In this document: piece after piece, positions 1,649 through 12,068 of the stretch | Position numbering within the stretch: the first letter of the stretch is position 1 | How the letters are laid out: each line of letters begins with the position of its first letter | Origin: a virus | IMG/VR virus record: IMGVR_UViG_3300007346_000225 | Coordinates: 1-24,496 of that record | Length of the DNA stretch: 24,496 nt | Reading direction: 5' to 3' (one strand) | Made by a program: the position numbers and the translations under genes | Notes under the pieces: generated by a model | Told to the model about the DNA's origin: nothing | Seen by the model: only the letters and a program-made list of their open reading frames with translations | Database searches by the model: none

Positions 1649-4600
1649 TTAATTAATTTGTTTTTCTGCTTTATTCGCAGCTTTTTCCCAAGGCAAAGCT
1701 GGAGAGCCTTCAATATATAATTTTCCCTTGTAATCTATTTTTTTATCGGGAGTTCTTTTATATTTCTCGTTGTTCCAATAAATAAAATTTTTATCATAGT
1801 TTAATTTACCAGACTTCATATCTTCTTGATGCTTTTTTTCATGAGCTATAACCTGCTTCTTTTTTGTAGGTGATAACCCATTAGCAACTTCTATAGTGCC
1901 ATTTTTATTAGCTCTACCCAATACTCCTTTTGGTAAACTATTTGAAAAATCTTTTTTAAATAAAGGTAAACCTTTTTGAATTCTCTTTTTAGCGTACTCT
2001 TTACGCTCCTCTTTATTCATTTTTTGGTAAGCTTGCATTCTTTTAAGCTTAGGATCAATTTTAGGACCATACTTTTTCATAAAAGCCTTTTTAATTGTAT
2101 CAGCTTTCTTTTGCTCTTTATCTTTCTTTTGTTGAGCCTGTATCATTCCCAAATCCCATTCGCTATAACCTAAAGCTAAACCAATAGATTGCCACAATTC
2201 AGTATCTTGATCAACTGCAGTTTTTAAGTTGTTCATTTTACGCACAGCTCTATCTAAAGGTATATTAGCTAATGCAGAAACGGTTTGTCCTACAGCCATA
2301 TAAGCTGGATTGTCAATATCAAAACCTCTAGTTTTCATTTTTTCAATCTCTTGCTTATAAGTAAACGTTCTACCAACAGACTGTAGCTTTCTTATTTTAG
2401 AATCTACAGGTGGTGATATACTTGTTATTTTAGCTGCAGCTTTAGTATAATCTGGTCTTCCGCTATTGTATTGTTTAATAGCTTCCATAACAATGTTCTT
2501 AATCATCGCTACGCCAGCCCCATACACACCTGAACCTCTTAATAAAGTATCAGCAATACCATTACCAATCCTACCGATCTTTTCTTTTTCATCATCATCT
2601 TCTTCATCAGAAAATAACATTGCAAACATTGCAGACTGTAAAGCTGTAAATATAATATTTTGAACAGCTCCATAATAAGCAAGTTTAGAAAGATTAGTCT
2701 TCCAGTCGCCGCGTCCATTAAAGAGATCTAAAGCAGCTTTTTTAGTCAATCTAGTATATTGCATAGGTGTGTTAGCAAAAGCTAATACAACGCGCCCTAA
2801 TGGACTTGCCTGCTGCATAGAAACTCTATCAGGTCTTGACGACTGCTGAGATTCTTCAGTTGTTTCTTTAAAATCTAAAAACGCTTGCTCTTTTGCCTGC
2901 TCTTCAGTAAGTCCGTCTTTCATTAACGACTTAATTCTGTTTCTATAAAAAGCAGCACCTCCAATTGATATTGCAAAACTATCTGCAAGTTGAGTTGGTA
3001 AAAAACCTTTCTTTAATACAGCAGCCAATGCAGCTCTAACTTTGTTGTCAGAAGTTGAAGCAGCTCTAGCTATTTCATCAGCATTAACATCTGTTTTTAA
3101 TCCACCTCTTCTTTGTTTTAAAAAGTCAGAATTAAATATTTCAGAAAAATCAGCCCAATACTGTTTTTGATTTGCAAACGCAGCAGCAACTCTCAATGGA
3201 TTATTATCTGTAAAGTTTAAATAGTTAACTGCCGATATTGTTTGTAGCAATGCAGATCTAGTGTTAAAGAACATTATAGTACCTACAGAGTCATTAACCC
3301 AGTTCATAAACTGATTAGTTAATTTATTAGCACCTGTAGGTCTATTGCGACCGGTCTTCATTCTATAAAGCATATCGCTTAACGCTTCAGTGTAATCTTC
3401 ACCGTAGATAGCACGAAGTTTATTCATGTTATCTTTGCTATACACTGTATCTACGTTTTCTTGCCACTGGCTTAAGTACTGTTCTCTACTAGCTGTATTT
3501 GTATAATTAACTAAATCAGTAGTTATTGTACCGGCTAACCAATCACCTGTTGGTGCTGGATAACCATCTAGAGTTAAACCTTGTATTTGCTCTGCAAAAC
3601 TTTTTAGCTCAGGCTTGCTTTCAATATATTTATTTATTGCTTCAATATCTTTTTTAGCAACATTATCAGGCAGCATACCTTGCTGGTCCCATAAATATAA
3701 TCTTATAGCCTCTTCATTACTAAAATCTCTTACAGCGTCATTACCTAACTTAGCGGGTGAATTTTTAATTTGCTTTTTAAGCTCGGTCCACTGTGTCATA
3801 GACTGCTGCTTAGCTATTTCAAAATCACGAATACCTCTTGCGTAAACATCGGTAATATTTTCTTTATACCATTTAAGATTTCTATCACCCTCAGCTCCCT
3901 TACCAAGCGTAGGATATATTAATCCCATATAGTCTTCAGCTGAATAAGGTACAAAAAACTTAAAAGGATTATTTTTCTTTCCAAGCTTTATAGCTCTAGC
4001 TTCAGAATATGTAGCATCAGCTGCAACCCCTTTAACTCTTTCAAGCAAATTATTAAAATCGTCGCTAAGATTTTTGCTAGCCAGAGCTCTTTGTGTTCTT
4101 GATTTTACATCAACTGTTTTTAAAGCTTCTTTTACAGCGGTAACATTTTTAATTGCATCATCTGCAAAATAAAAATCATTATACCCTTCTTTAGTTTTAC
4201 CTAATATCCAGTCTGCTTTTGCCTTCGCAGTGCCGTCTCCAAGCCCAACAATATTTTCTTTTTTAAAGTTTATACCAGCTAAGCTTAAAAACTTTTGTAT
4301 TGCATCAGCGGCGTCAGCGGGTCTAGCGGTAAGAACAAATAAATCTTCATTTCCTCTAGCGTCCGCTATTTTTTTAGCAACATTAAATAAAGGTCCTTTT
4401 TTACCATCAATTACTTTGCTAAATTCTGAAAAATCAAATTTTGCGCCTTTGTCTTTTAGCTCTTGATCTCTTTTTGCATATTCAGTTGCATTAAGACTAC
4501 CAGTAGTGCCGTTGGGCAAAGTATATTTAACTTGAGAATTACTTTTAGCTAAAGTGTCATCAAAATCAAATACTCTTATTTTTTTAACTGGATCAACAGA

Positions 4601-7600
4601 CTTGCTTGCTAATATTCTTTCCGTAGCAATTGGTTGTCCTGTAGCGTCTACACCGTATACTTCTTGAAAAGTGCCTCCGTTTAAATCTATAATACTTGAA
4701 GGATCTAAACCTCCATCAAACAAAGCAACAGTTGGATTAAAATACCTTTCTGTCCAGCTATTTGAAAATACTTTCCAGCCTTCTGGCATTCCGGTTCCTA
4801 AACCAGCATCACCTAGTTTATAATTTAAAGCTTTATCTAATGCTATTACTTTATAGTTATTTTTAACAGCTTTAAAATCTTGATAAAAATTTCTATTAGA
4901 AAGTATACTGTCTAGTAAATACAAATAAGCACCAGTAGCGGGCATTGCATGTTCAAATTCAAACAGCCTCCTGCCATCTCCTTTAACATTTAATGATCTG
5001 CCTATAACTTCAGCACCTAATCTATGTGGATGATTTTTTACATTAGCTACTAACTTAAAATAGTTTCCAAATACAATAGCTGCATTTTTATCTTTCTTAA
5101 TAGCATCGTGAATTCTTTTCCACATTTCGTCAAAAACTAAACCATTTTGTTCATTGAACTTAGCAGTTGTGCCGTTTTCAAAATTTTGTTTTTGTTTAGC
5201 TTCAGTATTACCTACAGCTTTACCATTTTCATACAATCTTCTTGTATAATCAGTAACGCCTGGAATATCATCACCCCAGTTTTTAAAATTATTATATGAA
5301 TCTTTTAATTTATTTCTATAATAATTATATACTTCATCTCTTTCTTGCTCAGTAAAAGACCTAGATTTACCACCTATAACTCTTTTACTGTGAGTAAACA
5401 TTCCTGTTCCTTCTCCTGTAAATAAAAACTTTTTAGGAAATATTGGAAATACATATTTTTCTAAGTCAGATATATATTTATCTATGTTTTCTTTTTTTCT
5501 TAAATCATATATACCTCTACCTAAATATTTATTTAAAAGCTTATTAACATCACCTGTTTCTAATCTAAACTCTCTATCTAAACTAGACTTAGGCTTATCA
5601 AATTGACTTTTACTAGCTAAAACAACACCGTGCTTCTTTTTAAATATTTCAGCAGTAGCAGGATCTTTTTTAGCAAATTCAATTCTAGCCTCATTTGCTA
5701 ATTGTCTAGCTATAGCATTATTTAAAGACTTTTTACGATCAGCTCTTGTTGATGCTTTTTCGTCCGTAGCTTCATAATAATCTATAAACTCTTCTTTTGT
5801 TGGTGGGTTTGTATTCCAATCTGCAGATATACCGCCACCTTTTTGAAAGTCTATATTATTTAATGCAGCATCTAATAACGCTTCATAATTCTTATTTAAA
5901 TACTTAGAAAAATCATCTGAATTTTTAGTGTTTTTACCTAATTCATTTTTAATATCATTAAATAATTGCTTACTAAAAATATCATTAAAAGCCTTATTTC
6001 TAGCAGAAAGCTTTTTAACATCAGATGTTTGTTTTCCTTCTAAAGATTTATCTGCCTTTATAGCCGCTAATTCTGCTAATTTATTTGTTTTTTCTGAAAG
6101 CTCTTTAGGCAGCTTTAAAGCTTCAGCTATAGGTTTTTTAGTTGAAACTTCGTCTGGTGCTTTTTCTTCAGCCGTAACAGCTTTAGCTTCTGTTACATCT
6201 GTTGTAATACCTACACCGCCTTCTTCAACTATAGATTCAATACCTAATTGCTTTGCTAATCTATTAGATCTTTGAAATGCTCTAATGCTAACAAATTTAT
6301 CAATGTCCTGCTTTGCGGGATCATATTCTTGATCTACTATCGTAGCCAAGTCTGAAATCATTGCATTTTTATATTCCTGTCTACTTACGCCTTCTTTAGC
6401 TTCTTGTGGTATTGGATCATATAATCTTTTAGTTACCGCCTCAACTATTGGCGCCACTTCTTGGCCAAATTCAGATTTTACAAAATCAAAAGTTTCCTGT
6501 CCTTGTGGCGTTTTAAGTAAACTTTGTTGAACTAAAGTTCTTTTATCCCCATATTTTTCAAGTAAGCCTTTTAAATTTGAACGGGAATCTTTTCTAGCTT
6601 TTTTAGCTTCTTTCTGAATGTCTTCAGTTTTAATTAGCCTTCCTTCAAAACCTTCTTTAGCCCCTCTTATTAAAGCTTGTCTTAATCCGCCTTTTGAAAT
6701 ATCTTTATTATAATCTTTTATAAAGTTATAAACATCTTTACCAGAATCAAATTTTCTTTTAATACCTACAGCGTCAAATATTTTTCTAAATTGATCACCT
6801 ATTTTTGTAAATAAGTTTTCATTAAATTTTAAATCACCAGTAGCAGTAGCATCAGAAAATAAAGCTAAAACTTCTTCACCCCTTACAGCTTCTTTTTCGG
6901 TTTTGTATAATTCTAATCTGTCCTTAAAAACAGAATCTTTTACTTCATTACTATTTAATTTATCAATTTCTGTTTTTAAAGCATTGCCTAATGATACAGC
7001 TGTAGCCGGACTATCTTGTAAAGTTTTAAATAATACAGCGTGAAGAAATTCGTGGGACCCTACATTTATAGCGCCTGTTTTTTTAGAAACTTCTTCATTT
7101 ATTATTATTTCTTGGCTGCCATCAGGGTTTTGTATTATAGTACCGTCATTACTTTCGGCTAATACTTTTGATTGCTTTGTTTTTCTTTTATCTTTAGAAA
7201 GCAAATAATTTTCAACCTCTTGCGATGTTCCAAATCTTTTAAATGAAAGGTTATCCAGTTTACTAGATAAACCTTCAATTGTTTTAAGATTTTTTTCTAA
7301 ATCAGCATCTGATCTATTTATAGCGTCAGATTTAATTTTAGTTAACTCTTGTATACTATTATTAATATTTGAATTTATTTCTTCTAAAAGTATATTTTGA
7401 TCTTCTTTGGTTATTTCACCATTTTCAAATCTTGAATTAACTTTATCTTGTTTTTGTTCTAATTTAGTTACTTTATCATATTCCTTTGATGCTCGATAAA
7501 CTTCATTATCAGTCATTGCATTAAACATTTTATTGTTTTGCAATATAACCTCAGCAGCTTCTTGCTGCTTTTCTTTTATTTGTTTATCAATAGCTTTTTT

Positions 7601-8881
7601 TACTTCTTTGTCTTTTGTGGCTGTTTTTTGCTCACGTAAAGTTTCTACGTCCTCTAAAGCTTTTCTAATATATTTTGATTCAAAAACAGAACGCATAGCT
7701 GTTGCAGCTTTTAATTTATCTGTTTTATCAATTAATAAATTTGATTTACCCCCGCGCAAAATTCCGCCACCAACAAAGCCCTGTAAATATGACTCCAATC
7801 CTTCTTCTGAAAATATTGCATCAGCAAAAGCTTCTGTTTTATTTTCACCTTTAGCGCCAGCTATATTGGCCGCATCTAATCCGGTTTGAGCCAATTCAGT
7901 TAATCCTTCTTTGTTTCCAGACAATAGTGCTGCAGCAATAGTTTTATTAATGCCGCTTTGAACAGCTTTATTCATTATTGCCTTACCAGCACCTTCTAAA
8001 CCAGATCTTTCTAATATAGCGCTCATTGCTCCTATTGTAGCCGGAAGCGCAACTTTATCTTCGTTGTCTCTTATTAAATCTGAAAGTGTCTTGCCTTTTT
8101 GGGCAGCTAAGGTATCATTGTAATCAATATATGATCTTCCAATTAAATCAGTAGCTAAACCGCCTCCTTGTGTTAGCAAGTTTATAGCTAAAGAAGATCC
8201 TATAGAAGTAATACCATTTACCACTCCTGCGGCAATTTCACCTATATCACCTTCTTTAAAACCTTTAACTATTGATCCGGTTTTACCCATTTCAGCTTCT
8301 TGCAACTTTTGTTGTTGTATTGCAAAATCTAAATCTTCTTTAGATAAACCTTCTTTAAAAAATTCTGGTATTTTTTCGTTAGCGACAAAAGCATCAATAG
8401 CCTCATCTCCAAATATACCTCTAAATATTTTATTACTAGCTACTACAGTGTTGGGTATAAATTGTTGGAATTGGTCAGCAACATTAGTTATACTATTAAC
8501 CATTTTATCTGTAGTGGATAATTCGCCTTGTGCTTTTTCTTTAGCTAATCTTTCGTTTATTTTATTGCGCAATTCAATTTCTTGCCTTGCTTCTCTTTCT
8601 TGATATGTTTCGTTTCTTTCAACGTCTGGCTTAAATATTTGGTCTACAATACCTAAAGCAGGATCTTCACTTTGTAATTCCGACGAACCACTTTCCAACT
8701 GCAATCCCGTATCGGGTCTTTGCCCTGCTGCAGGTGCAGTTATCTCCGCAACAGGTTCGGGCTTTTCCACTTGAACTTCTTGTTCTTCCAAAGTAGCATT
8801 AGGAAATTTTTTAAGAAATTCTTCCTCTCTATTTGGAGCAACATTATATTTTACTCCATCTACAATATAAATTTTATTCAT
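1649..8881 (-). CDS. Giant multi-domain virion/ejection protein with two HExxH motifs and a HAD phosphatase domain
   Basis: 2410 residues counted from ATG at 8881. An in-frame TTG at 8896 would overlap the previous gene and is rejected. Seen in order: an N-terminal motif IYIVDGVKYNV...FLKKFPNA (1-30); a Gly/Ala-rich hydrophobic patch (about 215-245); HEFLH at 610-614, followed by EE at 669-670, a gluzincin-like arrangement; a complete HAD set, DFDDT (D1439, D1441), LTAR (T1518) and FADD (D1574, D1575); a helical region (about 1860-2090) resembling C-terminal parts of large polyvalent phage proteins; a hydrophobic segment (about 2068-2092) followed by an acidic DEEDDDEKEK; and a second HEKKH at 2347-2351. 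Its place after 14- and 15-like genes matches T7 gene 16, the large ejected protein, but I see no lytic transglycosylase motif and no RNA-polymerase catalytic motif. Virion/ejection role is inferred; enzyme motifs are seen, activities unproven. Confidence 0.85.
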   Translation of the reverse strand: MNKIYIVDGVKYNVAPNREEEFLKKFPNATLEEQEVQVEKPEPVAEITAPAAGQRPDTGLQLESGSSELQSEDPALGIVDQIFKPDVERNETYQEREARQEIELRNKINERLAKEKAQGELSTTDKMVNSITNVADQFQQFIPNTVVASNKIFRGIFGDEAIDAFVANEKIPEFFKEGLSKEDLDFAIQQQKLQEAEMGKTGSIVKGFKEGDIGEIAAGVVNGITSIGSSLAINLLTQGGGLATDLIGRSYIDYNDTLAAQKGKTLSDLIRDNEDKVALPATIGAMSAILERSGLEGAGKAIMNKAVQSGINKTIAAALLSGNKEGLTELAQTGLDAANIAGAKGENKTEAFADAIFSEEGLESYLQGFVGGGILRGGKSNLLIDKTDKLKAATAMRSVFESKYIRKALEDVETLREQKTATKDKEVKKAIDKQIKEKQQEAAEVILQNNKMFNAMTDNEVYRASKEYDKVTKLEQKQDKVNSRFENGEITKEDQNILLEEINSNINNSIQELTKIKSDAINRSDADLEKNLKTIEGLSSKLDNLSFKRFGTSQEVENYLLSKDKRKTKQSKVLAESNDGTIIQNPDGSQEIIINEEVSKKTGAINVGSHEFLHAVLFKTLQDSPATAVSLGNALKTEIDKLNSNEVKDSVFKDRLELYKTEKEAVRGEEVLALFSDATATGDLKFNENLFTKIGDQFRKIFDAVGIKRKFDSGKDVYNFIKDYNKDISKGGLRQALIRGAKEGFEGRLIKTEDIQKEAKKARKDSRSNLKGLLEKYGDKRTLVQQSLLKTPQGQETFDFVKSEFGQEVAPIVEAVTKRLYDPIPQEAKEGVSRQEYKNAMISDLATIVDQEYDPAKQDIDKFVSIRAFQRSNRLAKQLGIESIVEEGGVGITTDVTEAKAVTAEEKAPDEVSTKKPIAEALKLPKELSEKTNKLAELAAIKADKSLEGKQTSDVKKLSARNKAFNDIFSKQLFNDIKNELGKNTKNSDDFSKYLNKNYEALLDAALNNIDFQKGGGISADWNTNPPTKEEFIDYYEATDEKASTRADRKKSLNNAIARQLANEARIEFAKKDPATAEIFKKKHGVVLASKSQFDKPKSSLDREFRLETGDVNKLLNKYLGRGIYDLRKKENIDKYISDLEKYVFPIFPKKFLFTGEGTGMFTHSKRVIGGKSRSFTEQERDEVYNYYRNKLKDSYNNFKNWGDDIPGVTDYTRRLYENGKAVGNTEAKQKQNFENGTTAKFNEQNGLVFDEMWKRIHDAIKKDKNAAIVFGNYFKLVANVKNHPHRLGAEVIGRSLNVKGDGRRLFEFEHAMPATGAYLYLLDSILSNRNFYQDFKAVKNNYKVIALDKALNYKLGDAGLGTGMPEGWKVFSNSWTERYFNPTVALFDGGLDPSSIIDLNGGTFQEVYGVDATGQPIATERILASKSVDPVKKIRVFDFDDTLAKSNSQVKYTLPNGTTGSLNATEYAKRDQELKDKGAKFDFSEFSKVIDGKKGPLFNVAKKIADARGNEDLFVLTARPADAADAIQKFLSLAGINFKKENIVGLGDGTAKAKADWILGKTKEGYNDFYFADDAIKNVTAVKEALKTVDVKSRTQRALASKNLSDDFNNLLERVKGVAADATYSEARAIKLGKKNNPFKFFVPYSAEDYMGLIYPTLGKGAEGDRNLKWYKENITDVYARGIRDFEIAKQQSMTQWTELKKQIKNSPAKLGNDAVRDFSNEEAIRLYLWDQQGMLPDNVAKKDIEAINKYIESKPELKSFAEQIQGLTLDGYPAPTGDWLAGTITTDLVNYTNTASREQYLSQWQENVDTVYSKDNMNKLRAIYGEDYTEALSDMLYRMKTGRNRPTGANKLTNQFMNWVNDSVGTIMFFNTRSALLQTISAVNYLNFTDNNPLRVAAAFANQKQYWADFSEIFNSDFLKQRRGGLKTDVNADEIARAASTSDNKVRAALAAVLKKGFLPTQLADSFAISIGGAAFYRNRIKSLMKDGLTEEQAKEQAFLDFKETTEESQQSSRPDRVSMQQASPLGRVVLAFANTPMQYTRLTKKAALDLFNGRGDWKTNLSKLAYYGAVQNIIFTALQSAMFAMLFSDEEDDDEKEKIGRIGNGIADTLLRGSGVYGAGVAMIKNIVMEAIKQYNSGRPDYTKAAAKITSISPPVDSKIRKLQSVGRTFTYKQEIEKMKTRGFDIDNPAYMAVGQTVSALANIPLDRAVRKMNNLKTAVDQDTELWQSIGLALGYSEWDLGMIQAQQKKDKEQKKADTIKKAFMKKYGPKIDPKLKRMQAYQKMNKEERKEYAKKRIQKGLPLFKKDFSNSLPKGVLGRANKNGTIEVANGLSPTKKKQVIAHEKKHQEDMKSGKLNYDKNFIYWNNEKYKRTPDKKIDYKGKLYIEGSPALPWEKAANKAEKQIN

Positions 8882-8885
8882 ATTA

Positions 8886-10427
8886 TTATTTTGCAAAGTC
8901 GTTATTTATTTGAGCTTGTCCTATTCCCTGCATTTCTGTTATAGGGTCATTAGTACCTGTTTTAGTACCTGCTGGAATTGGTTTTCTTCCGAAAGATTCC
9001 ATACCTGTAGCTGCATATATTTTTTTATATACATTATCTAGATTATTAAAATCATCTATATAAACCTGCACAGGTGTTCTTCTATTTGCTGGTAATTTTT
9101 CATTAACAATTTCATAGCCTAAAAATCTACCTGGAATTATTTCACCATCAGCACCTATGGATGGCTCGGTATAAATAGGTTTAGGATTGTTAAACCCTTT
9201 TTCTATAAGACTTGTTTTTACGTCGTTAACAAACTTACCTGGCTTAGTTGCAATTTCCTCTTTAAACATATAGTTTTTAGAAAGAGGATCGTTTTCGTTG
9301 TTATTATTAATAGTAGCTGCTGGTAAATTTGCTATTGTATTATTAACGTCTCTTCTATTATCAAGCTTTTCTTTGTATTGTTCATATTGATCTTGTCTAG
9401 CTCTACGTTCTGTACTAACAGCTTTTTGGTTAATACCGTACATGGCTTCTGCTTTTTGTAACCACTTTTGTTGCAATAGTCTATCGCCTTCTGTTACAAT
9501 ACCATCCGCTTTTTCTTGAGGTGTTAATTGATCTTCATCTATAACAGCTGTAAAAAGCTCCTTAGCTTTAGATCTTGGAACCCCAAAATGATCAACCAAT
9601 AAAGCAGCACTTTTTCTTTCTTTGTTTCCAGGGCCTGCAGTATTTATAAGATCAGTTAAACTATCTGCAGCTAAATCAGCAGCACTTAAACCTTGCCCAC
9701 CAATTCCACTAGGACTTTGGTTAAAGTCTAATATATTACCATCTCTGCCTGCGTTTAAATTTATAGATGATTTTATTAATGTATCAACATCATCTTTAAC
9801 CTGCAGCTTTTTAGATAGCTCACTAAATTGACTTGCTGCAACTTGATACGGCTTGCCATCAACAGTTTCAGATACCCATGTTGTAACACCGTTAATGTTT
9901 TCAAATCTACCTTTAGGTGATCCTCTTCTCATATCTTCAGCCATGCCTAATAATTCAGGTGAATTATAATCTGAAAATGTACCATTTTCTATAGCAGTGT
10001 TAACCGCACCTAAAAAAGACTTAGCTTCCTGATCCATGTTTTTAATGCTACTAACCTCCCCTTTTAATCTAGCCATAGCTGCAGAATATGATGTCATATC
10101 TCCAGTTCTTTTAAGCTCTTTATTTAAGTAAGCAGCTTGATCTGCAATAGATCTTCCAGCAGCAGTCATAATTTCATCCATTCCCTGCACACCAGCAGTA
10201 GGCATGATATTTAAATCGTCCATATCTTGCGCCATTTTTTGCGCATAATTATAGTTTAAAATATCTCTTTTAAGCTGTCTGTCTCTTTTAGCTTCAGCTC
10301 TATCTGCCATTAATCGTCGCTCTGCTATAGATTCGTCTATAGCTTGCCCAATCATCTGTTGGCTTTTAGCGCCACCAGGCTTGTATTCAAATTCTTTTGA
10401 CCAAAAGTCGTAATTATAGTTTGCCAT
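8886..10427 (-). CDS. Probable internal virion/ejection protein (T7 gp15-position)
   Basis: 513 residues from the ATG at 10427 (MANYNYDFWSKEFEYKPG). The longer frame to 10484 would add 19 residues and overlap the preceding gene by 53 bases, whereas the ATG at 10427 leaves a 4-base gap like its neighbours. The protein is soluble and mostly helical: residues about 20-70 are charged with many Arg/Lys/Asp/Gln; the middle is mixed; and residues about 320-375 form another charged helix (QDQYEQYKEKLDNRRD). There is no signal peptide, membrane segment or catalytic motif that I recognise. It sits between an Ala/Gln-rich repeat protein and the 2410-residue giant, the slot held in T7-like phages by gp15, a tube-forming ejection protein. 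Function is inferred from position only. Confidence 0.72.
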   Translation of the reverse strand: MANYNYDFWSKEFEYKPGGAKSQQMIGQAIDESIAERRLMADRAEAKRDRQLKRDILNYNYAQKMAQDMDDLNIMPTAGVQGMDEIMTAAGRSIADQAAYLNKELKRTGDMTSYSAAMARLKGEVSSIKNMDQEAKSFLGAVNTAIENGTFSDYNSPELLGMAEDMRRGSPKGRFENINGVTTWVSETVDGKPYQVAASQFSELSKKLQVKDDVDTLIKSSINLNAGRDGNILDFNQSPSGIGGQGLSAADLAADSLTDLINTAGPGNKERKSAALLVDHFGVPRSKAKELFTAVIDEDQLTPQEKADGIVTEGDRLLQQKWLQKAEAMYGINQKAVSTERRARQDQYEQYKEKLDNRRDVNNTIANLPAATINNNNENDPLSKNYMFKEEIATKPGKFVNDVKTSLIEKGFNNPKPIYTEPSIGADGEIIPGRFLGYEIVNEKLPANRRTPVQVYIDDFNNLDNVYKKIYAATGMESFGRKPIPAGTKTGTNDPITEMQGIGQAQINNDFAK

Positions 10428-10431
10428 ATTA

Positions 10432-11628
10432 TCAGTTGTTGCCGAAGCCTGCTTTATCCATGAAACCCGAAACTTTATCCCCAAAAAGTCCCCCTGTTGC
10501 TGCGCCTACTGCAGCATTAGCAACGCCAGCTATACCGCCAATAAGATCTGACTTAGCTTGAGCTCTTGCCGCATCAGCAGAATTACTTCTTGCCATTGCT
10601 CTACTTGTTTGATCTTGCAATCTATCAAATTCAAATTGTTGTCTAGCAGCATCGCCTTGTCTTTCCATAACATCAGTTTTAAACTGATAATCAGCTGCAG
10701 CCATTTGTGCTTGGTTTGCAGCCGTTGCTCCAAATCTAGCGGCGTTGTTTTGTGCTTGTTGATTAGCTAATGCAAATTGATTTTCAGCACCAAATTGTGT
10801 TTGTGCAAAACGATTTTGCGCTCCAGCATTAAACTGATTCATTTGATTTTCAGCTCCAAACTTAGCTAATGCAAATTGATTAGCTGCACCTGCTCCAAAC
10901 CTTGCGGCTTGATTTTGTGCCTGTGCACCAAATTGTGCTGCTTGATTTTGTGCTTGTGCTCCAAATTGTGCAGCTCTGTTTTGAGCCCCCACATTAAATT
11001 GACTTTGACCTAAATCAAATTGAGACGCTAAATTTCCTTGTGCTAATTGAGCTCTTTGTAATTCACTTTCACCCTGAGCTCTAAGCATTTCATTTCTTTT
11101 AACCTGCTGATCTATAGAAGCAGCCACACCAGCTTTTGATTTTGCTGCTGCTGCCGCTAACGCCGTAGCGCCACCTGCTCCCGTACCGGCTTGCGCAGCT
11201 AAATCTTGTGATGCTGCTAATGACTGATCTGCTTCTCTAGCTTGCATATCCGCAGCCGCTGTTGAAACTTGCAAGTTAGCCATTGTATTAGTTAACCCTG
11301 TGTCAGCTCCTCTAGCTAGACCCGCTACTGAAGTTGTTCTTGGATCATATCCTTGTGCCGTATAACCCTGTGCTTCATAACCCTGTGATGGCGCTAACGT
11401 TGCTAGCTGAGCCTGAGCAGCGGGGCCTAATTGACCAACTTGAGCCTGAGAAGGATCATAGCCTGACATTGAAATATCAGGAGTATCCATTCCTGCATAT
11501 ACATTTTGTAAATCAAAAGCGTCTTGTCTGCCTCTAGCGGCTTCTAAACCTGCGGTAGCAGCTTTCTGTTCTCTTCTTCTTTTTCTACCTCCAAAAAGTG
11601 ATGCTACACCTTTTACTATATCTCCCAT
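10432..11628 (-). CDS. Ala/Gln-rich repeat protein, probable internal virion/ejection protein (T7 gp14-position)
   Basis: 398 residues. The ATG at 11628 shares its A with the TAA of the upstream gene (TAATG), which implies coupled translation. It opens MGDIVKGVASLFGGRKRRRE, a short amphipathic start followed by a basic cluster. Residues about 78-96 hold three AQGY-type units. Residues about 210-305 hold about seven imperfect copies of an 11-residue unit FGAQAQNQAAR, some with short insertions. The C-terminus has a Gly/Ala hydrophobic stretch (IGGIAGVANAAVGAATGGLF) that could enter a membrane. Ala, Gln and Asn dominate the composition. Small, Ala-rich proteins with such termini are usual as the first ejection protein (gp14-like) in podoviruses; that role is inference from order and composition. 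Confidence 0.74.
   Translation of the reverse strand: MGDIVKGVASLFGGRKRRREQKAATAGLEAARGRQDAFDLQNVYAGMDTPDISMSGYDPSQAQVGQLGPAAQAQLATLAPSQGYEAQGYTAQGYDPRTTSVAGLARGADTGLTNTMANLQVSTAAADMQAREADQSLAASQDLAAQAGTGAGGATALAAAAAKSKAGVAASIDQQVKRNEMLRAQGESELQRAQLAQGNLASQFDLGQSQFNVGAQNRAAQFGAQAQNQAAQFGAQAQNQAARFGAGAANQFALAKFGAENQMNQFNAGAQNRFAQTQFGAENQFALANQQAQNNAARFGATAANQAQMAAADYQFKTDVMERQGDAARQQFEFDRLQDQTSRAMARSNSADAARAQAKSDLIGGIAGVANAAVGAATGGLFGDKVSGFMDKAGFGNN
10720..10995 (-). repeat. Tandem 33-bp-type coding repeats (FGAxAQNQAAx units)
   Basis: Inside the Ala/Gln-rich protein gene, about seven imperfect units recur. The clearest two adjacent copies lie around 10915-10980 (gctTGATTTTGTGCcTGTGC-type, about 33 bp each) and differ at only a few bases. 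Units further left are more diverged and carry insertions of 2-9 codons. This pattern is expected from unequal recombination or slippage within a coding repeat, so copy number may vary between related phages. Confidence 0.75.
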
Positions 11629-12068
11629 TAGTATTTTAGTATTAATTCATAGGAAGGAGTTTCATCGCAATAATACTCCGCCTTTTTATATTTTTCTAAT
11701 AATCTACCTGGCTTTGCCCATGCAAAAGCATATTTATAACCTAAGTCTTCAGCAAAATCAGTTGTAAAATCTACTAAGAGTTGCAATGCATCACTTCTGT
11801 CGGTGTCACGATAAGATCTATCACTCACTACAACAGCTGGAATTGCCATCTTACTATTTGTCATCCATAGCCACATAGCTGCAATAGGATCATTTCCTTT
11901 GCAAACCATAAAGCCGCCTAGTCCTTCACGTTTTTTTTCTTGTTCATCACCCACTTGAAATGCTCCGGGTAAAAAGTCACGAGGGAAGCCTTCAGAACCA
12001 TAAGCTTCCCACCAACTTGGTATTAAATCCCAATCGGATTCTTGTAATTTTCTTACTTGTAATTTCAT
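11628..12068 (-). CDS. GNAT-fold protein with degenerate acetyl-CoA loop (T7 gp13-position)
   Basis: 146 residues, ATG at 12068. The C-terminal half follows the GNAT pattern: strands around IAAMWLW and AIPAVVVSD; then a helix where the pyrophosphate loop should be; then YKYAFAWAKPGRLLEKYKKA, comparable to the final strand-helix-strand in which GNATs have a FYxKxGF-like motif. The usual R/Q-x-x-G-x-G/A loop is replaced by RDTDRSDALQ, so acetyl-CoA binding is doubtful. In T7, gene 13 encodes a virion-assembly protein of similar length placed directly before gene 14, and T7 gp13-type proteins have been related to the acyltransferase fold. Here, as there, the protein precedes the ejection-protein genes. 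I infer a virion-assembly or scaffold-like role rather than an active acetyltransferase; activity remains possible. Confidence 0.68.
   Translation of the reverse strand: MKLQVRKLQESDWDLIPSWWEAYGSEGFPRDFLPGAFQVGDEQEKKREGLGGFMVCKGNDPIAAMWLWMTNSKMAIPAVVVSDRSYRDTDRSDALQLLVDFTTDFAEDLGYKYAFAWAKPGRLLEKYKKAEYYCDETPSYELILKY

Follow-up and report, generated by a model that had tools for sequence, protein, structure and literature searches.

What does a phage gain from one very long late protein that carries several separate enzyme signatures? This question was raised by the window, the whole stretch of 24,496 nucleotides analyzed here (IMG/VR record IMGVR_UViG_3300007346_000225), a 24.5-kb virus record that is probably a fragment. 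Reading of its open reading frames placed the giant gene on the minus strand, with an ATG at position 8881 and a stop codon at 1649-1651; an alternative TTG start at 8896 would give a protein of 2,415 instead of 2,410 residues. The motifs HEFLH (residues 610-614, with E670), DFDDT (1439-1443), LTAR (1517-1520), FADD (1572-1575) and HEKKH (2347-2351) all lie in this single chain, exactly where a preliminary description of the sequence had located three enzyme signatures. Its proposal that one late virion-module polypeptide unites a HAD phosphatase with a pair of metallopeptidase-type domains was borne out by invariant active-site columns in the relatives, and the signatures belong to real domains and not to chance. 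The chain combines several unrelated enzyme domains, namely a zincin, a HAD domain and a mini-zincin. Two further domains had been overlooked: one with an EHxxPA motif and a probable sigma-region-2-like one. The features of the giant are as follows.

1649..8881, minus strand: giant polyvalent ejection-type gene, 2,410 aa (relatives L002-L014 and hundreds more)
6647..7249, minus strand: predicted gluzincin-type zincin, residues ~545-745 (HEFLH 610-614 at 7040-7054, E670 at 6872-6874)
6164..6613, minus strand: probable sigma-factor region-2-like helical domain, divergent copy, residues ~757-906 (VIA, profiles, hhalign)
4787..5044, minus strand: EHxxPA domain, residues ~1280-1365, borders approximate (E1310 and H1311 at 4949-4954)
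4082..4591, minus strand: HAD phosphatase, optional module, residues ~1431-1600 (phrog_415, motifs, VIA, in-frame absence in L004)
2147..4078, minus strand: conserved all-helical core, residues 1602-2245, family-wide (13-member alignment, model)
1667..1933, minus strand: C-terminal mini-zincin, residues ~2317-2405 (HEKKH 2347-2351, PWE 2397-2399)

Standard searches with the whole giant returned little. Pfam gave a chance match only, with no LPD or peptidase model matched, and tblastn against 50,697 phage records gave no matches; a Pfam scan of 19 giants yielded DUF3293 in one and SHOCT in one, and the HAD, zincin, mini-zincin and core profiles found only chance matches among PDB sequences. Among the BFVD matches was one called 'large polyvalent protein associated domain-containing'. 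Structure models were obtained for residues 520-1430 (AF2) and 1415-2410, and folds were searched with VIA-align and Foldseek. The earlier remark that the giant lacks a lytic transglycosylase and an RNA polymerase agrees with these results at the level of sequence searches: Pfam matched neither, profiles revealed no similarity to the RNA polymerase N4 gp50, and the models relevant to a transglycosylase covered residues from 520 onward.

The zincin region was compared across 51 relatives, in an alignment with a mean column identity of 15%, and H610, E611, H614 and E670 were its only strictly invariant columns. The AF2 model of this region showed strands at residues 545-550, 580-584 and 590-595, an HExxH helix at 607-623 and a helix at 664-681 bearing E670, an order of elements that matches the one defined for the metallopeptidases of polyvalent proteins in the survey by Iyer et al. 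(PMC5512222). The best non-sigma structural matches near the zincin were anthrax lethal factor chains, although these matches were weak (Z of about 6, with weak Foldseek E values); the lethal-factor fold is the one that Iyer et al. named for the N4 domain (PMC5512222). Residues 610-670 carry the gluzincin signature of a conserved HExxH and a downstream glutamate, and zinc binding and peptide cleavage are predicted. The first zincin that had been proposed for the giant is supported by its invariant residues and the zincin-like order of strands and helices; the scores of the fold matches were modest. At the other end of the chain, H2347, E2348, H2351 and P-W-E (2397-2399) did not vary in an alignment of 15 relatives, both fused and solo, solo proteins of ~120 aa being found in some 40 other phage contigs (among L121-L162). 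PHROG matches of this domain were phrog_16532, phrog_10499 and phrog_87 (metallo-protease), and residues 2347-2399, with a conserved HExxH and a downstream glutamate, constitute a predicted metallopeptidase module.

In the HAD domain, D1439, D1441, T1443, T1518, K1555, D1574 and D1575 were invariant in 69 HAD rows, with the invariance of motif I biased by the search pattern and that of motifs II-IV unbiased. The domain matched phrog_415 (polynucleotide kinase) with an E-value of 2.4e-7, and a DUF2608 match was just above its cut-off. The phosphatase of T4 Pnkp (5uj0_B) was found to be the top fold match and showed a Z-score of 10.6 and an rmsd of 2.7 Å over 120 residues (VIA-align); the next matches were Pnkp1/Rnl/Hen1 and T4 PNK, with 4xru_D at a Z-score of 10.2. 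Pnkp phosphatases occupied ranks 1-3 (Z-scores of 9.2-10.6), with other HAD folds close behind at 8-9. As modeled, the domain is most like the 3'-phosphatase of T4 polynucleotide kinase, and removal of 3' phosphates is its predicted activity; the suggestion that nucleic-acid ends are the substrate fits both the fold match and phrog_415. The giant's HAD shares its catalytic motifs and its best fold match with T4 Pnkp, which is a separate enzyme with a kinase half; in contrast, no kinase half was found in the giant, where the HAD is fused into a virion-module protein. The HAD is an optional module: L004 and other relatives are about 88-93% identical in the flanking protein, yet the HAD is absent from them, in frame in L004. 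At the joint, ATERILASK is directly followed by NLNQDFN in L004, whereas in the window giant ATERILASKS leads into the HAD domain, which is followed by RALASKNLSDDFN. In two other contigs (L110 and L111), the HAD does not adjoin the core but precedes it by about 700 residues, which is evidence of module shuffling.

The most conserved part of the giant is the core of 640 aa that follows the HAD, with a mean column identity of 73% in 13 members. Its model was all-helical, carried no enzyme signature and had no clear PDB match when searched as part of the larger model. Homology of the core to the giants of elemo, ctfjg026 and phi38:1 was considered on the basis of a few MAFFT co-alignment columns and was set aside, as the profile search gave it no support. 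The EHxxPA domain follows the sigma-like region and precedes the HAD; in it, E1310 and H1311 are near-invariant in 51 relatives and the model shows a strand that ends in EH and is followed by a helix; no PDB match was listed for it in the fold search with the 520-1430 model.

The IMG/VR search revealed 13 direct relatives of the giant, and a scan with the HAD alignment revealed at least 505 HAD-bearing stretches in viral contigs, of which 80 were kept; among these 80, nearly all HAD stretches immediately preceded the 640-aa core seen in the giant. The giant family has hundreds of marine relatives, and its domain make-up is now defined. Counted in sampled ORFs, many of them 5'-incomplete, the combinations were zincin, HAD and core (40), HAD and core (38), core and mini-zincin (7), zincin, core and mini-zincin (6), HAD, core and mini-zincin (5), and zincin and core (3). 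All four modules occurred together only in the window giant among the ORFs sampled, so the triple combination that first drew attention brings together common modules in a way that is uncommon.

To place the giant in its genomic setting, three neighboring genes are needed.

8886..10484, minus strand: second ejection-cassette gene, ~516-532 aa, start uncertain (synteny; positional counterpart of phi40:1 gp100)
10432..11628, minus strand: first ejection-cassette gene, 398 aa, homologous to phi40:1 gp099
11628..12068, minus strand: GNAT-like protein, 146 aa, homologous to phi40:1 gp098 (iterated profile search)

PHROG matches in the window comprised a terminase C-terminus, a portal and several virion structural genes, which the giant gene adjoins. 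The portal and capsid have relatives in named phages on Bacteroidota, namely Flavobacterium phage elemo, the Cellulophaga phi38:1 and phi46:3 groups, Maribacter phage Panino and Tenacibaculum phages, as well as in the environmental ctfjg026, all at about 23-50% identity. The order portal, scaffold, capsid, tail, (GNAT), 398, 516 and giant was common to elemo, ctfjg026, Panino and phi38:1/phi40:1 with small differences, and in the annotated relatives examined a large gene occupied the corresponding position, towards the end of the structural genes. The giant closes a three-gene cassette (398 aa, ~516 aa and 2,410 aa). The 398-aa protein, which contains A/Q/N-rich imperfect repeats (NQAAQFGA...), matched gp099 with an E-value of 7e-58 in an iterated profile search, while sequence relatives of the ~516-aa gene were found only among L002-L006. 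The GNAT-like name derives from the sequence and from the annotation of a relative, and a virion-borne acetyltransferase is possible. MS/MS data underlie the annotation of gp098-gp101, the last four genes of phi40:1, as structural. The phages phi38:1/phi40:1 (Pervagoviridae) agree with the window in gene order, in having homologs of the GNAT-like and the 398-aa protein, and in a large protein at the giant's position, the MS/MS-proved gp101; however, gp101 of the phi40:1 type has 1,691 aa and neither HExxH nor DxDxT, and the giant and the ~516-aa gene share only their positions with gp101 and gp100, with no detectable sequence similarity. This synteny, with the MS/MS of the positional counterpart, indirectly supports the original assignment of the giant as a virion protein. 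The N4 cassette gp52-gp51-gp50 likewise runs from small to medium to giant, and its three proteins are ejected, form a channel and deliver the giant (PMC12633501); for crassviruses, ejection of large, partially unfolded cargo proteins has been proposed (PMC10172136). From the gene order, the phi40:1 MS/MS data and the N4 and crassvirus parallels, we infer with good support that the giant is packaged in the head and ejected with the DNA; it would be the largest protein in the particle of this marine flavobacterial phage. N4 gp50 and the giant are also alike in that each carries an HExxH domain and a long helical part with no known fold, whereas gp50 is a virion RNA polymerase, to which the giant shows no sequence similarity.

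Directly behind the zincin, the 520-1430 model matched, unprompted, sigma70, sigma28, WhiG, sigmaA and Caulobacter sigma70 domain 2 over residues ~769-881, with rmsd values of 2.6-4.4 and Z-scores of 4.6-6.7, the latter within the noise range of VIA for helical models. The copies in relatives read like region 2 (for example, IIEEFKPIVNKIVQRRSEAPGFDRQLLTDEIETGKRGILDLIREYDPESGVPLAAYINKFLPARAIEASKRVL in L100), and their profile matched FliA, RpoH, RpoS and RpoD in register in a six-sequence test. Against 177,635 PDB sequences, this profile placed sigma factors first (8b3z, E 0.005; FliA, E 0.07; sigma-K, E 0.09), with Piwi AF1318 also among the top matches (E 0.08), and a second alignment of the family placed sigma factors first again. 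When the family was compared with six E. coli sigmas by hhalign, alignment A9 gave a P-value of 8e-5 and a score of 30.8 and alignment A11 a score of 23.9; the reversed control scored 12.9, the maximum in 300 match-column shuffles was 16.1, and the probability fell from 61 to 18 with the second alignment. Nine of 300 whole-column permutations scored near 131, which we took as a program artefact, the printed case being a 10-column end alignment with a zero probability sum; the match-column shuffle served as the cleaner control in its place. The window giant scored 79 bits against the iterated family profile, and PF04542 matched two relatives (best E 0.02). Residues ~757-906 and their relatives probably resemble region 2 of the sigma-70 family in profile and fold, whereas the window giant's own domain is below Pfam detection (no PF04542 match at E <= 10), the WW aromatic pair of -10 melting is absent from alignment A9, and region 4 was not seen in the giant.

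Structure matches, profile matches and shuffle controls each lend modest support to the sigma-like assignment. A generic helical bundle with a fortuitous resemblance would account for a best Z-score that the tool itself warns about, for the silence of PF04542 on the window giant, for the drop in hhalign probability and for the weak similarity to the phages' own sigma described below; it would account less well for structural and sequence routes that converge on one family, for first-ranked PDB chains that are sigma factors in register, for a real score of 30.8 against a shuffled maximum of 16.1 and for the PF04542 matches in two relatives. We consider the bundle the less probable of the two, and a true fold resemblance to sigma region 2 likely; that the domain binds RNA polymerase is a tentative suggestion.

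Fourteen of 16 related contigs (L256-L269) encode an ORF of ~250 aa with a PF04542 match, ten of them above the cut-off, and an alignment of these solo sigmas matched E. coli sigmas at 98% probability. The RNA polymerase beta subunit was not found in the related contigs, which may be incomplete, while the controls were detected; the relatives therefore have their own sigma factor, with no multi-subunit RNA polymerase of their own seen. An origin of the giant's domain as a duplicate of the solo sigma was considered and is not claimed, the similarity being weak (P 0.005). Speculatively, a large family of marine flavobacterial phages would package a sigma-region-2-like domain in an ejected giant, the zincin could free it on entry, and the domain would bind the beta' clamp of the host's RNA polymerase. 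There it would either initiate early transcription of the phage or keep the host sigma away until the solo sigma is made. Such a virion-delivered sigma factor or sigma mimic, of which we found no example in the part of the literature covered, would replace a virion RNA polymerase and, if true, offers podoviruses without a detected RNA polymerase of their own a candidate route to seize host transcription at time zero; the giant may help this takeover from the first moment of infection.

Taken together, the domains, the invariant active-site residues, the model-level folds and the synteny with MS/MS-proved virion genes point to a polyvalent ejection protein of the phage type (probability of about 0.8). 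It would be the last and largest product of a three-gene ejection cassette in a flavobacterial podovirus whose relatives include Pervagoviridae and Elemovirus. Polyvalent proteins are a known class; as in the survey by Iyer et al. (2017, PMC5512222), the giant joins unrelated enzyme domains in one chain, belongs to the late virion genes and has a zincin-like metallopeptidase hub with an HExxH helix and an E helix. In contrast, a HAD or Pnkp-type phosphatase and a sigma-like domain, such as the giant has or probably has, are not named in the main text of this founding survey (PMC5512222). We infer packaging, ejection, the order of events, catalysis and substrates as follows. The 640-aa core and the N-terminal region would pack the giant in the head and carry it through a channel formed by the two smaller cassette proteins, in the way that gp50 of N4 follows gp52 and gp51. 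Once inside the host, the gluzincin and the mini-zincin would cut the chain into working pieces, host proteins or both, while the sigma-2-like domain may contact host RNA polymerase or DNA. The HAD would act like the phosphatase half of T4 Pnkp and strip 3' phosphates where DNA or RNA is broken, making it harder for host nucleases to halt the incoming genome or its translation. A peptidoglycan role, which had also been suggested, found no support, and neither did host-protein cleavage as the default, self-processing being at least as likely.

What counts against the polyvalent ejection protein is that position is all the giant shares with gp101, the elemo giant and N4 gp50, to none of which it shows detectable sequence similarity, that no LPD or peptidase model of Pfam matched it, and that the structural scores of the zincin are modest. 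A narrower role as a pre-loaded effector, with the zincins acting on host proteins, the HAD on host metabolites or phosphoproteins and no self-processing, would suit the two separate peptidase-type domains and a HAD that is optional, as expected of effector cargo, and host targets are retained as an alternative by Iyer et al. (PMC5512222). We regard it as less likely, since the HAD is closest to nucleic-acid 3'-phosphatases, and the zincin, unlike the variable other modules, is present in most of those family members whose length allows for it, which fits general processing better. Still less probable is a structural ejection protein in which the core does the work and the enzyme-like domains are mostly vestigial. 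That the core is the most conserved part, that the enzyme modules come and go and that the N4 vRNAP has an HExxH domain yet is packaged unprocessed (PMC5512222) would be expected of such a protein; however, the active-site residues are strictly invariant where their surroundings fall to about 15-20% identity, which speaks for selection on catalysis.

As a polyvalent ejection protein, the giant would deliver a Pnkp-like end-healing phosphatase just as the genome enters. What this one cargo domain contributes is open to direct test in natural pairs that differ in the HAD while their backbones are otherwise ~90% identical. The giants of elemo and ctfjg026 (L020 and L021; 3,694 and 3,859 aa) have an HExxH of their own, with no detectable similarity to the window giant family. 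In Maribacter phage Panino (L015, 35438-40927), the protein at the giant position is annotated as a tRNA methyltransferase, which suggests that different phages carry different cargo here. In two contigs (L125 and L133), the mini-zincin is fused to a PAP2-like phosphatase segment (PSGHSAQG).
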